Source of the DNA: Paenibacillus larvae subsp. larvae
Lineage (GTDB): Bacteria; Bacillota; Bacilli; Paenibacillales; NBRC-103111
Length of the DNA: 64,000 bases
Reading direction: 5' to 3'
NCBI RefSeq assembly: GCF_002003265.1
Contig: NZ_CP019687.1
Location: 4,097,501 to 4,161,500, forward strand
Shown here: piece after piece, positions 16,155 to 51,809 of the stretch
Layout of the letters: every line of letters starts with the position of its first letter
Numbering within the stretch: the first letter of the stretch is position 1
Made by a program: the position numbers and the translations under genes
Notes under the pieces: generated by a model
Database searches by the model: none
Seen by the model: the letters and a program-made list of their open reading frames with translations, nothing else
Told to the model about the DNA's origin: nothing

Positions 16155-16184
16155 TTGACAGATACACACATTGTTCATTATAAT
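16155..16184 (+). promoter_or_regulatory. Promoter of tRNA-Pro
   Basis: TTGACA (16155-16160), 18-bp spacer, TATAAT (16179-16184). The mature tRNA begins 14 bp downstream. Confidence 0.85.
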
Positions 16185-16197
16185 GGCTATGGAAAGT

Positions 16198-16274
16198 CGG
16201 GGTATGGCGCAGTCTGGTAGCGCGCACCCTTGGGGTGGGTGAGGTCGCAGGTTCAAATCCTGTTACTCCGACCA
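16198..16274 (+). tRNA. tRNA-Pro (anticodon GGG)
   Basis: A 77-nt cloverleaf: acceptor CGGGGTA / TACTCCG, D arm GCGC-AGTCTGGTA-GCGC, anticodon arm CACCC-TTGGGGT-GGGTG with anticodon GGG at positions 34-36, and T arm GCAGG-TTCAAAT-CCTGT. Discriminator A and an encoded CCA end complete it. It is a single-gene unit with its own promoter. Confidence 0.95.
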
Positions 16275-33805: not shown

Positions 33806-34906
33806 GTGCAGCCGAAACCTAATATTGTACATCTGCCTGTTTACCAGCCAGGCAAGCCAATCGAAGAAGTGAAGCGGGAACTAGGATTGACTCATGTAAC
33901 AAAATTAGCTTCTAATGAGAACCCATTTGGTTGTTCCCCAAAAGTCCGTGAAGCGATGAAAGAAGAATTGAATAAGCTTCATACCTATCCGGACGGAGGA
34001 AGCGTGGAACTGTCCCAGACATTAGCTGACTTTCTGGGTGTCAAGAGCAATCAGCTAATTTTCGGCGCAGGTTCGGATGAAGTCATTCTGATGATTGCCA
34101 GAGCTTTCCTGGTGCCTGGGGATGAAACCATCATGGCTACGCACACGTTCCCACAGTACAAACATAACGTGGAAATCGAAAACGCCAAAGCCGTAGAGAT
34201 CCCCCTTATCCAAGGGACTCACGATTTGGCTAGTATGCTCGGGGCCATAAACGAACGGACCAAGATTGTCTGGATTTGCAACCCGAATAATCCGACGGGA
34301 ACGTTACTTACCCACGATGAGATTGCCGGGTTCTTACAACAAGTACCGGACCGTGTTTTGGTAGTCCTGGATGAAGCATACTGTGAATACGATACGACAG
34401 GCGATTATCCGAGAACTTTTGAACTGCTTGAGCAGCATCCTAATGTCATTGCGCTGCGTACATTCTCGAAGATATACGGTCTTGCTTCTTTGAGAATCGG
34501 ATATGGAATCGGTCATCCTGACGTTATCCATACTATTAATCAGGTTAGAGAACCATTTAATACAACCCGCATGGCTCAGGCCGCTGCCAAAGCAGCCATT
34601 TCGGACCAAGACTTTATTGAAAGCTGCCGGCTTAAGAATGCGGAAGGGCTCCGTTATCTGAATGAACAGTTCAAACGATTGAATCTGGAAGCATTTCCTG
34701 CCCACGGAAACTTTATCATGGTAAATACCGGCCGTCCCGCCGCAAAGGTCTTTGAAGGGCTGCTCCGAAAAGGATTTATTGTCCGCAGCGGCGATAACCT
34801 GGATTTCCCGTCCCATATTCGCGTTACGGTTGGGAACAATGAACAAAATAAACAATTCGTTGCTGCCTTGGAACAGGTATTGGCGGATATATCGGTAAAT
34901 GTATGA
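33806..34906 (+). CDS. hisC: Histidinol-phosphate aminotransferase
   Basis: A 366-residue fold type I aminotransferase: LASNENPFGCSP, YPDGGSVELSQTLA, FGAGSDEVI, WICNPNNPTGT, VLDEAYCEY, and the PLP lysine in RTFSKIYGLASLRIGY. In this operon the enzyme probably also serves as an aromatic aminotransferase for tyrosine and phenylalanine, as the B. subtilis homologue does. GTG 33806 is preferred over GTG 33797: AAAGAGGTGA (33791-33800) overlaps the latter. Confidence 0.94.
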   Translation: MQPKPNIVHLPVYQPGKPIEEVKRELGLTHVTKLASNENPFGCSPKVREAMKEELNKLHTYPDGGSVELSQTLADFLGVKSNQLIFGAGSDEVILMIARAFLVPGDETIMATHTFPQYKHNVEIENAKAVEIPLIQGTHDLASMLGAINERTKIVWICNPNNPTGTLLTHDEIAGFLQQVPDRVLVVLDEAYCEYDTTGDYPRTFELLEQHPNVIALRTFSKIYGLASLRIGYGIGHPDVIHTINQVREPFNTTRMAQAAAKAAISDQDFIESCRLKNAEGLRYLNEQFKRLNLEAFPAHGNFIMVNTGRPAAKVFEGLLRKGFIVRSGDNLDFPSHIRVTVGNNEQNKQFVAALEQVLADISVNV

Positions 34907-35793
34907 AAATTGCTGTTATCGGGGTCGGCCTGATCGGAGGATCGCTGGCCCTTTCCATGAAAGGTAAACACGGAGTTGCCGTAACCGGCTTTTGCCATGA
35001 CGGGCAGACAGCGGAGCGTGTCCGGCGCCGGCAGGTGACAGACCATGTGACCACTTCCCTGCAGGAAGCCGTGGAAGATGCAGATGTCATTTTCCTAAGT
35101 GTTCCTGTCGGGTTATTATCTTTTTACATGGAACAAGTATTAGGGTGTAATCCAAAACCAGGATGCATCATAACTGATGTGGGCAGTACAAAAGCTTCCA
35201 TTGTAGAAGCTGCAGAAAAGTTGAACATGACCGGTGTACATTTTATCGGGGGGCATCCGATGGCCGGTTCGGAACGTTCAGGGGTAGAAGCAGCTACTTC
35301 CTACCTGTTTGAGAATGCGTACTACGTGTTGACACCACTTCCGGGAACGCCAGAAACGGCAATTGAACGGCTATCGGAAATCATCGGTTGGACCAAGGCA
35401 AAGGTCATTCAGGTTGAAGCGGCCCGTCATGATGATATTGTCGGCGCGATCAGCCACCTTCCTCATGTTATTGCAGTAGCACTCGTCAACCAGATCCGCA
35501 AGTACCATGAAGCAGATGACTTATATAAAGTGCTGGCAGCCGGCGGTTTCCGGGATATCACACGAATCGCTTCGAGTGATCCGCAAGTATGGAGAGATAT
35601 TTTGCTTAATAACAGAGAGATCGTACTCAAATTGCTGAATGATTGGGATTATGAGCTTTCTCACTTTAGGCAATTGCTGCTTGAATGTGATGGTGAAGGA
35701 ATTCAAAATGAATTCAAATCCGCAGGAGAATTTCGCTCCTCTGTTCCGGAAAGACGCAAAGGTATGATTTCTTCTTTTAAGCCGGCAGTATGA
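34903..35793 (+). CDS. tyrA: Prephenate dehydrogenase lacking the C-terminal ACT domain
   Basis: A 296-residue protein with a Rossmann start (IAVIGVGLIGGSLALSMK), GSTKASIVEAAEKL, FIGGHPMAGSERSGVEAA, AISHLPHVIAVAL and GGFRDITRIASSDPQVWRDIL. It oxidises prephenate to 4-hydroxyphenylpyruvate. The B. subtilis enzyme is ~70 residues longer, with a regulatory ACT domain; here the frame stops after ERRKGMISSFKPAV, in the linker. No ACT-like sequence is found in the other frames downstream. It overlaps hisC by ATGA. The EPSP synthase gene that often ends this operon is not present. Confidence 0.92.
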   Translation: MKIAVIGVGLIGGSLALSMKGKHGVAVTGFCHDGQTAERVRRRQVTDHVTTSLQEAVEDADVIFLSVPVGLLSFYMEQVLGCNPKPGCIITDVGSTKASIVEAAEKLNMTGVHFIGGHPMAGSERSGVEAATSYLFENAYYVLTPLPGTPETAIERLSEIIGWTKAKVIQVEAARHDDIVGAISHLPHVIAVALVNQIRKYHEADDLYKVLAAGGFRDITRIASSDPQVWRDILLNNREIVLKLLNDWDYELSHFRQLLLECDGEGIQNEFKSAGEFRSSVPERRKGMISSFKPAV

Positions 35794-35886
35794 AATTCAC
35801 AAATGAATAACAGGTCGTCCTAAAACACGGAAAACATTAACAAGTTTATGAAAAAAAGGACGGGAAAGCGATTTCGAAAAAAAGTG

Positions 35887-35915
35887 TTGACAGATTGAAA
35901 CCGTATTCATATAAT
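35887..35915 (+). promoter_or_regulatory. Perfect consensus sigma-A promoter
   Basis: TTGACA (35887-35892), 17-bp spacer, TATAAT (35910-35915). It drives the candidate small RNA that ends at 35995. Confidence 0.9.
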
Positions 35916-35921
35916 AAAAGT

Positions 35922-35995
35922 ACAGTATGGTTTCTCTCCACTCCTATCCGATAATCGCACAATGTGCAGCCACCTTTGATAAGGTGGTTTTTTTT
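35922..35995 (+). ncRNA. Candidate small RNA or terminated leader, ~75 nt
   Basis: The promoter above would start near 35922, and the transcript meets an intrinsic terminator CCACCTT-TGAT-AAGGTGG-T8 (35970-35995). Between them is a pyrimidine-rich single strand (TTTCTCTCCACTCC) and a small hairpin GCAC-AAT-GTGC. No ORF or Shine-Dalgarno is present. It could be a trans-acting sRNA or a constitutively terminated leader of the gene at 36113. Not matched to a known family. Confidence 0.55.
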
Positions 35996-36112: not shown

Positions 36113-36709
36113 GTGACGACAATCGGTTTTATCCGGCACGGAATTACAGAGTGGAACCGACTTGGGAGAATTCAGGGGGTTATGGATATTCCGTTGAATG
36201 ATGAAGGACGGGAACAAGCCCGTAAATTGGGCAATCGCCTGAAGCATGAAAATTGGGATGGCATTATTAGCAGTGACTTGCGCAGAGCCAAAGAAACTTC
36301 GGAAATTATTTCCCAGCTCTCCGGGATCCCCGTCCTAGAGTATGACAAGAGGCTCAGGGAACGCTTTTTCGGAGAAGCAGAAGGCACTACCCTGGAGGAA
36401 AGAGAAGAACGTTGGGGATCTGAATGGAGAAATGCCGGCATTGGAGTAGAGACAGATGAAGCATTGTTACAACGCTGGGATGATTTTACTGAAACACTTT
36501 TTAAGAAATACCCGGAGAGACGTATTCTGCTTGTAAGTCACGGTTCATTTATAGGAACGATTTTAAAAAGACTCGAGATTGAACAGCCTGGGAATTGGCT
36601 GACCAACACGTCACTGACGTGTCTGCAAAAAAAAGAGAACACGTGGGAATGTACCTTGTATAACTGCTCTTCGCATTTGAACGATTCTGCCAAAACAGAA
36701 AGAGTATAA
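36113..36709 (+). CDS. Histidine phosphatase (phosphoglycerate mutase-like) family protein
   Basis: A 198-residue branch-1 histidine phosphatase: IGFIRHGITEWN holds the RHG phospho-acceptor, LRRAKETSEIIS the second Arg, the acidic LRERFFGEAEG segment, and LLVSHGSFIGTIL the second His. Substrates in this family range from 3-phosphoglycerate to alpha-ribazole phosphate and cannot be fixed from sequence. GTG 36113 follows GGGAGGGA. Terminated at 36730. Confidence 0.85.
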   Translation: MTTIGFIRHGITEWNRLGRIQGVMDIPLNDEGREQARKLGNRLKHENWDGIISSDLRRAKETSEIISQLSGIPVLEYDKRLRERFFGEAEGTTLEEREERWGSEWRNAGIGVETDEALLQRWDDFTETLFKKYPERRILLVSHGSFIGTILKRLEIEQPGNWLTNTSLTCLQKKENTWECTLYNCSSHLNDSAKTERV

Positions 36710-36887: not shown

Positions 36888-38018
36888 ATGAATTTGGCGG
36901 ATATGCTAAGCTATGCCGATATCCAGGAGTTGAAAAAAATCGCTTCTACTTACTCTTGTGAATGCAATAGCCATTCCAAGAATGAGCTGATCCAATCAAT
37001 TCTCAGTACGGTAAACCGCAGGGAGGTTTTTGAAGAGCGAATCAGCCGGTTAAGTATGGAAGATATCCGTTTTTTAAATTCACTGCTCTATGATCGGCGG
37101 AATTCATTCAGCATGGAAGAGCTTATCGCCCGTGTCCAGCAGACCAAATTTTCCGGGGAAGAGCAAAAAGACATCCAGCCCAGGGAAATGATTCTTAAAT
37201 TTAAACAGCATGGCTGGCTATTTCACGGGTTCTCCCAGCAGACCAAATGCTTGTTTCAGGTTCCTACCGATCTGAAGAAAAGGTTCAATGCCGCTCTTGC
37301 TAAAAAATTCGGATCTTCGCTTGTAACAACAGGCAAGCCCAACGTTTACAGGGATGAGCAAACACTTTTTCAACAGGACATTCTTGCGGTGCTGCGGTTT
37401 TTCTCCATGAATGAAATTCCTTTAACGGGCGAATTATTCTTGTACAAAAGGCAGCTTCAGCATTTGCTGGATTTGCTTTCTGTTGAGGAAAAGGGCGTTC
37501 CGAAAGGGGCGTGGAGATTCGGATACGGACGTAAATGTAAAGAATACCCTGACCGCTTTTCGCTGATTTATGACGTCTGTTACTTTGACCGCCTAATTGC
37601 CGAGGAGGGGGGCAGGGTGATAGTGACCGAAAAAGGGAAGGAATTGCTGGAATCAGGGAGCAAACCGGACATCACAGAGATTTATAAGATTTGGCTCAGA
37701 CTTTACAAAAATCCGGTCCCTAACATCCAGTCTCTGGTTCACTGGATAGACACACTGGCGGCTGAGTGGGTGACGGTATCCTCTTTGCAGCTGGTTTTAG
37801 TCCAGCTTATCCGTCCGTTTTACTACGATTCGGCGGAGTCAATCTTTCACCAAAGACTTGTTCGGATGATGATGCATCTTGGTTTTGTTCAGCTTGGGGA
37901 AGATGATAAATATGGACAGGTTATAAAAATGACTCCGCTTGGTCATGCGGTTATTCAAGGCATCTATGTTGCAGAGGAAGACTACATACAACTAAGAACG
38001 GACCCTAATAAGATTTGA
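36888..38018 (+). CDS. Conserved hypothetical protein, helical, possible winged-helix
   Basis: A 376-residue soluble protein. The N-terminus (MLSYADIQELKKIASTYSCECNSHSKNELIQSIL) looks like a SAP/LEM-type small helical module. The middle has several helices and FSQQTKCLFQVP. The C-terminal half has MTPLGHAVIQG, reminiscent of winged-helix ends in helicase-associated proteins. No catalytic motif is visible. GAAAGGAAG precedes ATG 36888. I do not recognise a named gene; it occupies the ypiA/ypiB position of the Bacillus map but does not resemble them. Confidence 0.65.
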   Translation: MNLADMLSYADIQELKKIASTYSCECNSHSKNELIQSILSTVNRREVFEERISRLSMEDIRFLNSLLYDRRNSFSMEELIARVQQTKFSGEEQKDIQPREMILKFKQHGWLFHGFSQQTKCLFQVPTDLKKRFNAALAKKFGSSLVTTGKPNVYRDEQTLFQQDILAVLRFFSMNEIPLTGELFLYKRQLQHLLDLLSVEEKGVPKGAWRFGYGRKCKEYPDRFSLIYDVCYFDRLIAEEGGRVIVTEKGKELLESGSKPDITEIYKIWLRLYKNPVPNIQSLVHWIDTLAAEWVTVSSLQLVLVQLIRPFYYDSAESIFHQRLVRMMMHLGFVQLGEDDKYGQVIKMTPLGHAVIQGIYVAEEDYIQLRTDPNKI

Positions 38019-38598: not shown

Positions 38599-38649
38599 TC
38601 TGCCACTGCTCCTCAGGAAGGCGCGGACGATACTTTGGAGGTTAGTCCT

Positions 38650-38835
38650 ATGGGAAAAATGAATGTATACAACGATGCAATGCTGACTCTTTTTGCTGAG
38701 ATGATTCTGGATGAGGCCATACGCAAAAGAAAAGAGAGTCATCTCTACCAACAAATTGATAGTGCCTTAGCCGAGGGGGATGAAGCTGCCTTTCTAGCCT
38801 TAACGGCCGAATTGAAATTGATTCAGAATCCCTAG
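38650..38835 (+). CDS. IDEAL domain protein
   Basis: A 61-residue protein whose C-terminal half (LYQQIDSALAEGDEAAFLALTAEL) fits the IDEAL domain (Ile-Asp-x-Ala-Leu). The N-terminus MNVYNDAMLTLFAEMILDEAI is a helix. The IDEAL domain occurs alone or at the end of YpiB/ComK-related proteins in Bacilli. GGAGG (38637-38641) is 8 nt before ATG 38650; the upstream in-frame TTG 38635 is not used. Confidence 0.78.
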   Translation: MGKMNVYNDAMLTLFAEMILDEAIRKRKESHLYQQIDSALAEGDEAAFLALTAELKLIQNP

Positions 38836-38880
38836 GGTAACGCACGGGTAGTCCAGGAGCGATTCCGGGGCCTTGGGAAC

Positions 38881-38920
38881 AACAAAAAGACATATGACCA
38901 GGTTCATATGTCTTTTTGTT
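38881..38920. terminator. Long perfect hairpin terminator, bidirectional
   Basis: A 17-bp perfect stem (38881-38897 with 38904-38920), loop CCAGGT; the arm ends with T5GTT on one strand and starts with AACA5 on the other. Confidence 0.85.
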
Positions 38921-38949
38921 ATGATTGTTTTCGCAATTTCTTTCTGCCT

Positions 38950-38962
38950 GAATCAATTTCAT
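38950..38962. repeat. Single left end of the inverted-repeat element
   Basis: GAATCAATTTCAT matches the first 13 bases of the element end (816-828), then diverges. It sits in the 230-bp gap between the hairpin at 38881 and ypiF. Confidence 0.5.
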
Positions 38963-39150
38963 TAACCAGGGGAAATACAAGTTCCCAAATTGGCTCTTTA
39001 GTACAAGATATGAAAAAAACTCACTACCCCTGTTTAAATTTTCCTCATGGATGCCCGCAAGGTGTTATGATGGGATTGAAAGAACAAACAGAAATGGCTA
39101 TGGTGTTCTTTTTGGGACAGCACCAGGCAAAGAAAGTGAGTGAAGGTGTA

Positions 39151-39603
39151 GTGAAATTTAGTGAAATTGAACAAGATCAATGGTCTTCGGTCAAGGAATA
39201 TTTTGATACCGCCCTTTTACCGGTTACGGGCTTAAAGGGAAACGAACAGCCATGGGAAGTGACCAAGGCGCTGGAAGAGCTCAGGGATGCCCTGGACTTC
39301 CTGGAAATACCATACAAAGGACGGACTGTGACCTATCCTTCTATTCATTTTATCAACGAGGAGAACGGGGAGTCGGCTATTAACACATGTTGCCGCCGGC
39401 TTAAAGAAGCGGGTTTTTCTTACGTGGTGGTGGTTACCGCCAATGAAGATTTGGCTTCTTTGCATTTAGCAGAGGCAGACCTGCTTTTTTTCCTGAATTC
39501 TTCCAAATCGGGAGTAAATCCCGAAGAATACAAAAATGAAATTGCTCTAAAGGTCCAACAGCTATGGTTCGGGTCCAATAAATGCTATATTATAACCAAA
39601 TAA
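39151..39603 (+). CDS. ypiF: YpiF-like protein (DUF2487)
   Basis: A ~150-residue protein beginning VKFSEIEQDQWSSVKEYFDTALLPVTGL and ending WFGSNKCYIITK. It has the mixed alpha/beta pattern of DUF2487 and lies directly upstream of qcrA, like B. subtilis ypiF. The open frame extends to 38908, but no family similarity is evident before residue 82, and a promoter or other signal probably lies there. GTG 39151 has a poor, close Shine-Dalgarno (AAGGTG), so the start is uncertain. Function unknown. Confidence 0.65.
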   Translation: MKFSEIEQDQWSSVKEYFDTALLPVTGLKGNEQPWEVTKALEELRDALDFLEIPYKGRTVTYPSIHFINEENGESAINTCCRRLKEAGFSYVVVVTANEDLASLHLAEADLLFFLNSSKSGVNPEEYKNEIALKVQQLWFGSNKCYIITK

Positions 39604-51620: not shown

Positions 51621-51809
51621 TGAGGCGGTATCCAATATCGAACTGCACTCTTACAAGATCTTCATTTATAACGTTTTTAACATGAACCATATTGTTAGCT
51701 TAACGGATGATGACGGATTCTGCTCTGAGCCTGGAGGGACCGAGACAGAAGGATCAACGATTCTTTGTTTACGTGTGCCCTTTAGCGTTTTTTTGCTGAA
51801 GGGTTTTTT
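51621..51809 (+). ncRNA. Structured panB leader, candidate pan-type motif with terminator
   Basis: The ~190-nt leader contains a hairpin built from TTCTG-CTC (51718-51725) and GAG-A-CAGAA (51742-51750), with an outer TGAT/ATCA pairing and an internal loop rich in purines. It ends with the terminator CCCTTTAGC...GCTGAAGGG-T6 (51778-51809). Bacillus panB operons have a conserved 'pan' RNA motif at this place (family knowledge), but I cannot confirm its consensus. A terminated standalone RNA is also possible. Confidence 0.45.
51778..51809 (+). terminator. Intrinsic terminator in the panB leader
   Basis: CCCTTTAGC (51778-51786), T-rich loop, GCTGAAGGG (51795-51803), T6. It lies 135 bp before panB, so most transcripts may stop there unless read-through is allowed. 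Confidence 0.85.

Follow-up and report, generated by a model that had tools for sequence, protein, structure and literature searches.

A candidate CcpA-repressed small RNA with a near-invariant C/U-rich seed in Paenibacillus larvae and other Bacilli

Known relatives in function and the place of the new locus

The Staphylococcus aureus small RNA (sRNA) RsaI (RsaOG) is under CcpA repression at high glucose, and pairs with the Shine-Dalgarno sequences of glcU_2 and fn3K, repressing their translation (PMC9266662). Its mRNA-binding region is C-rich, its G-rich regions bind other sRNAs, and it is confined to Staphylococcus (PMC8216469). RosA of Bacillus subtilis is a stand-alone, CcpA-repressed sRNA with a sigma-A promoter (PMC8216469); it is ~225 nt long, processed, acts as a G-rich sponge of RoxS and FsrA, and has its CcpA operator (cre) at -1 to +12. 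SR1, also of B. subtilis, is repressed on glycolytic carbon, with repressor sites upstream of the -35 element and in the promoter spacer (PMC8464778); it is a 205-nt RNA controlled mainly by CcpN and encodes SR1P. RoxS/RsaE (RF01820) is C-rich and regulates central metabolism of Bacilli in trans (PMC8216469); its own control is by ResD and Rex. Targets are known for only five of the trans-encoded sRNAs of B. subtilis (PMC8464778).

The locus described here lies in a 64,000-nt stretch of the Paenibacillus larvae subsp. larvae chromosome (hereafter the window), and is predicted to produce an RNA of ~74 nt. RsaI is its nearest counterpart by function, with CcpA repression and Shine-Dalgarno binding both inferred for the new RNA, yet it is not a homologue by any test made here: no Rfam model matched the new family, and the G-rich motifs with which RsaI binds its sRNA partners have no counterpart, as position 35922-35995 contains no GGGG. 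With RosA the new RNA shares, by inference, a sigma-A promoter, CcpA repression and a stand-alone gene, but it is far shorter and C/U-rich; with SR1 it shares repressor sites, here putative, upstream of the -35 element and in the promoter spacer, but it has no conserved ORF. A search of this genome with RF01820 gave no match, and no Rfam family, FsrA included, matched the new loci. Sequence, length, base composition and Rfam thus set it apart from RsaI, RosA, RoxS/RsaE and SR1 alike.

The suggestion, made in an earlier note on this DNA, that the sRNA is new was borne out as far as catalogues and publications go. Rfam 15, searched at gathering and loose thresholds with the window and 20 distant homologues, returned nothing relevant to the element, and no description was found in literature on the sequence itself, on sRNAs of Paenibacillus and P. 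larvae, or on non-coding RNAs of Brevibacillus and Paenibacillus. An apparent overlap with Hrs13 in a single homologue (L112) was rejected: its score was 35.2 bits, the cut-off being 52, and it began after the start of the seed. RNA-seq of P. riograndensis yielded 27 small RNAs, the majority without a known function, and the present sRNA may already be among them, unrecognised. We place the element, for whose transcription direct evidence is missing, in a new family within a kind already known, the CcpA-repressed trans-acting sRNA.

Anatomy and conservation of the gene

The features of the locus are collected in Table 1. Both hexamers of the promoter are consensus (12/12), separated by 17 bp; exact TTGACA-N15-19-TATAAT sequences occur twice in the 64 kb, as compared with 0.06 expected by chance. 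The other instance, at 16155-16184 and with 18 bp between the hexamers, precedes a tRNA gene by 14 bp (promoter and gene together 16155-16271, +), and the description of the sRNA promoter as the best in the window therefore reduces to a tie in the hexamers. The RNA start was placed 7 nt after the -10 element and is a prediction without 5'-end data. The resulting RNA folds with -17.3 kcal/mol (z -1.9), its 5' pyrimidine-rich part remaining mostly open and two hairpins lying behind it, the second of which, the terminator, has 9 pairs and a loop of 4.

Table 1. Features of the sRNA locus and its neighbours (window coordinates)
Feature	Position	Strand	Basis or detail
tyrA (prephenate dehydrogenase), conserved upstream neighbour	34903..35793	+	Pfam PDH_N/PDH_C; synteny
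Degenerate upstream cre-like site GGGAAAGCGATTTCGA, 8/11	35862..35877	+	Comparison with relatives
Sigma-A promoter	35887..35915	+	-35 TTGACA 35887-35892; -10 TATAAT 35910-35915
cre (CcpA operator) TTGAAACCGTATTCAT	35895..35910	+	Perfect match to WTGNAANCGNWNNCWW; fills the -35/-10 spacer
Predicted sRNA, ~74 nt	35922..35995	+	Sequence, fold, covariance model R1
Near-invariant C/U-rich seed UUUCUCUCCACUCCUAUC, mostly unpaired	35931..35948	+	Conservation, fold
Small hairpin GCAC-AAT-GTGC	35957..35967	+	Fold; compensatory changes within family
Intrinsic terminator	35968..35995	+	Stem 35968-35989, then T run to 35995
Histidine-phosphatase-family gene, downstream neighbour	36113..36709	+	Pfam His_Phos_1; synteny

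The element was found by BLASTN in 104/104 genomes of the GTDB family, representing 22 genera, normally as one strong match per genome. A covariance model (R1) built from 53 homologues extended this to 246/248 genomes of the order (12 families) and 197/399 genomes sampled across the class Bacilli. The earlier note had named lack of conservation in close relatives as grounds for refuting its proposal, and had called for a covariance search; the first test was passed strongly, and in the second compensatory changes keep both hairpins. Its promoter and terminator are thus a real pair, present more than by chance and family-wide, the small hairpin that it had mentioned appears in the predicted fold, and the C/U-rich strand that it had pointed to turns out to be the conserved, mostly unpaired part of the RNA. 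Within the family loci, two-sided changes affect 7/12 helix pairs (73 cells vs 24 in shuffles), with slid controls far below the real helices. This count used a hand-set structure, since RNAalifold alone missed the terminator because of variation in loop length.

Conservation is concentrated in the seed. UUUCUCUCCACUCCUA is nearly invariant between variable flanks, and ACAGTATGGTTTCTCTCCACTCC is invariant in all 69 fetched loci of the GTDB family, while the flanks on both sides diverge and the hairpins, including the terminator stem, vary with compensation. Mean unpaired probability over the seed is 0.81 (109 homologues). Little is left in distant Bacilli loci apart from TTTCTCTCCACTCCTA, a terminator and a near-consensus sigma-A promoter; outside the order, almost every locus has this promoter in the corresponding position. 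The 100% conservation of the core in this distant set is partly due to selection, because the loci were picked by the model and the core, though core variants are still few (L122, L134). Among the weakest model matches, several (f17, f24, f47, f59) have both core and promoter and are judged genuine, and L337, L338, L343 and L345-L350, in which the core is missing, are false matches. Scanning contigs with a narrow pattern found carriers that include Ammoniphilus, Hydrogenibacillus, Ca. Carbobacillus and Paenibacillus sinopodophylli. No copy was found in phage, plasmid or viral collections, and there is therefore no sign of a mobile element. Sequence and comparison establish the anatomy of the gene, the conservation of its seed, the presence of the cre, the common place on the chromosome and the breadth of the family.

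Putative CcpA operators around a fixed RNA

The earlier note overlooked both this breadth and a CcpA operator inside the promoter. The cre at 35895-35910 is the only perfect one in the window, but 0.73 would be expected, so the weight of the observation rests on its place and conservation: a spacer cre matching at 11/11 positions stands in the identical place in 68/69 family loci. Most family loci also have a second cre-like site 31-33 bp upstream of the spacer cre; its homologue in P. larvae is degenerate, and most relatives match at 9-10/11 positions (AAACGTTTTCAA).

Outside the order, a cre of at least 10/11 was present in 25/47 loci and a perfect one in 12/47, as compared with 2.5 and 0.1 expected from dinucleotide shuffles. 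Related loci are not independent, and these ratios thus overstate the number of events; the differing positions of the sites nevertheless require several, since the cre lies over the -35 element in L329, L332 and L333, inside the terminator loop in L103, L104 and L106, downstream of the terminator in L115 and L344, and at the start of the promoter in L138 and L145. The pattern looks as if CcpA control had been re-acquired at lineage-specific places around a fixed RNA. By the consensus used, a good cre is missing from about half of the loci beyond the order, which counts against the CcpA explanation. Repression of the promoter by CcpA is in any case inferred from the cre alone, without binding data, and CcpA itself was not sought genome by genome.

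Proposed action, candidate targets and competing explanations

We think it probable that the locus is a stand-alone sigma-A sRNA gene, repressed by CcpA, whose C/U-rich seed pairs with Shine-Dalgarno regions to lower translation; the open seed and the CcpA operator both agree with an antisense role and with repression by glucose. As long as a preferred sugar is available, CcpA would occupy the cre between the -35 and -10 elements and block the promoter; once that sugar is exhausted the RNA, whose transcription is itself an inference, would be made, so that it would act when glucose is scarce. Its 5' seed would then pair with purine-rich Shine-Dalgarno regions of mRNAs and reduce their translation, the targets probably being genes that are useful only on a preferred carbon source. 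Both the antisense action and this target class are inferred. The earlier suggestion that the strand pairs with Shine-Dalgarno sequences is consistent with these data, and no target is proven.

In this genome AGGAGTGGAGAGA, a 13-nt perfect complement of the seed, covers the Shine-Dalgarno and start region of ptsI (enzyme I; TTG start), and a shorter match occurs at a 6-phosphogluconolactonase-like gene; both names come from reading the proteins, without a family search. The ptsI complementarity was not conserved in other enzyme I genes (30 genomes tested), and we treat it as a species-specific lead. No mRNA target recurring across genera emerged from the target search. A Shine-Dalgarno-like pattern was enriched over a reversed control in the family, but the genes found did not recur, and the enrichment is weak evidence because ordinary ribosome sites would give the same result. 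A single-stranded C/U-rich sequence fits many Shine-Dalgarno sites by chance.

That the whole 16-18 nt is frozen exceeds the usual demand of ordinary seed pairing and counts against this explanation. It could instead be, although we hold this to be rather unlikely, that the seed has a single, deeply conserved partner, be it a protein, a second RNA or a component of the ribosome, and that the RNA is mainly a sponge or decoy under CcpA control. The near-invariance of the seed over many families, the failure to find a conserved mRNA target and the existence of CcpA-controlled sponge RNAs such as RosA (PMC8216469) all point this way, as does a second sRNA-like gene with ATCTCTCCACTCCTACC, a 13-nt motif shared with the first, in two genomes of one family (L301, G257:C5 about 172015; L278, G424:C1 about 1184539). 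This second gene contains the anti-Shine-Dalgarno motif ACCTCCT, has a promoter region that is cre-like and ends in a terminator of its own; it also accounts for two exact antisense 14-mers from distant genomes that were at first candidates for targets. However, the known CcpA-regulated sponges use G-rich rather than C/U-rich sequences (PMC8216469), no partner has been identified, and seeds with many targets can be frozen too.

We give little credence to the conserved block being a DNA element such as an operator, with the transcript incidental. The promoter spacer of L116 and L117 carries GGAGTGGAGAG, an inverted copy of the seed ~30-40 bases before it, as does that of L110 with one base different, and these copies remain unexplained; such a copy is missing in other loci, however, and the block has a sigma-A promoter immediately before it and a covarying terminator behind it.

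Chromosomal position bears on the still weaker suggestion that the element acts in cis, as leader or attenuator for the gene behind it, or belongs to the 3' end of the upstream operon. In the window it does follow tyrA and precede another gene of the same strand, and in most loci the sRNA gene stands directly behind hisC, tyrA or aroA, that is, at the end of an aromatic amino-acid operon. The gene behind it, however, varies in identity and strand (opposite in L101, L105 and L113), and this fixed place with a variable next gene favours vertical descent and speaks against a leader acting in cis. The histidine-phosphatase gene of P. larvae differs from the neighbour in most relatives and is therefore not a conserved cis target. 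The element further has its own consensus promoter and terminator, and the covariation analysis found no alternative conserved fold for the latter. Some genomes have a second copy elsewhere (e.g., L139).

Several other features of the neighbourhood were recorded. A 376-aa ORF without a Pfam match (36888-38018, +) has homologues (cluster 7) that in other Bacilli stand behind the sRNA locus, and genes for IDEAL-domain and DUF2487 proteins lie further downstream (38635-39603, +), resembling the ypiB-ypiF neighbourhood of Bacillus. The pan motif (RF01749), a known cis-regulatory RNA, occurs at 51622-51752 (+).

No more probable than the cis element is a role as messenger for a short peptide (MVSLHSYP...), alone or with a second function as in SR1. 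The earlier statement that there is no ORF was almost right: a frame of 24 codons does run from an ATG at 35928 through the terminator, and ATGG precedes the core in 90/109 distinct homologues, but this ATG lies 6 nt after the predicted +1 without a Shine-Dalgarno sequence, is missing in many lineages (L135-L138, L327-L342), and begins a frame that is not conserved, whose downstream length is random (8 to 100 codons) and whose third codon positions are conserved just as strictly as the others.

Returning to the CcpA-repressed antisense sRNA, its distribution can be set against that of RoxS/RsaE. In the class sample RF01820 was found in 110/399 genomes (B. subtilis, the control of that search, carries RsaE) and the new model in 197/399, with both in only three (G489, G513, G592). 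The new-model matches in G489 and G592 have no core, and that in G513 (E 0.0096) rests on the model alone, so that the two RNAs essentially never co-occur. The split follows families and may thus reflect one or few evolutionary changes rather than many.

The sRNA gene is largely confined to orders without RoxS/RsaE. Tentatively, it could be an ancestral carbon-status sRNA of the Bacilli whose 16-nt core has been frozen while CcpA control was rebuilt around it, with a role like that of RoxS/RsaE in Bacillus and Staphylococcus, and maybe one dominant, deeply conserved partner in place of several ordinary mRNA targets. A small RNA gene spread over the Bacilli, its seed almost unchanging and CcpA sites recurring around it, would represent a large blind spot, and would offer a single short sequence with which to test how Bacilli couple carbon status to translation.
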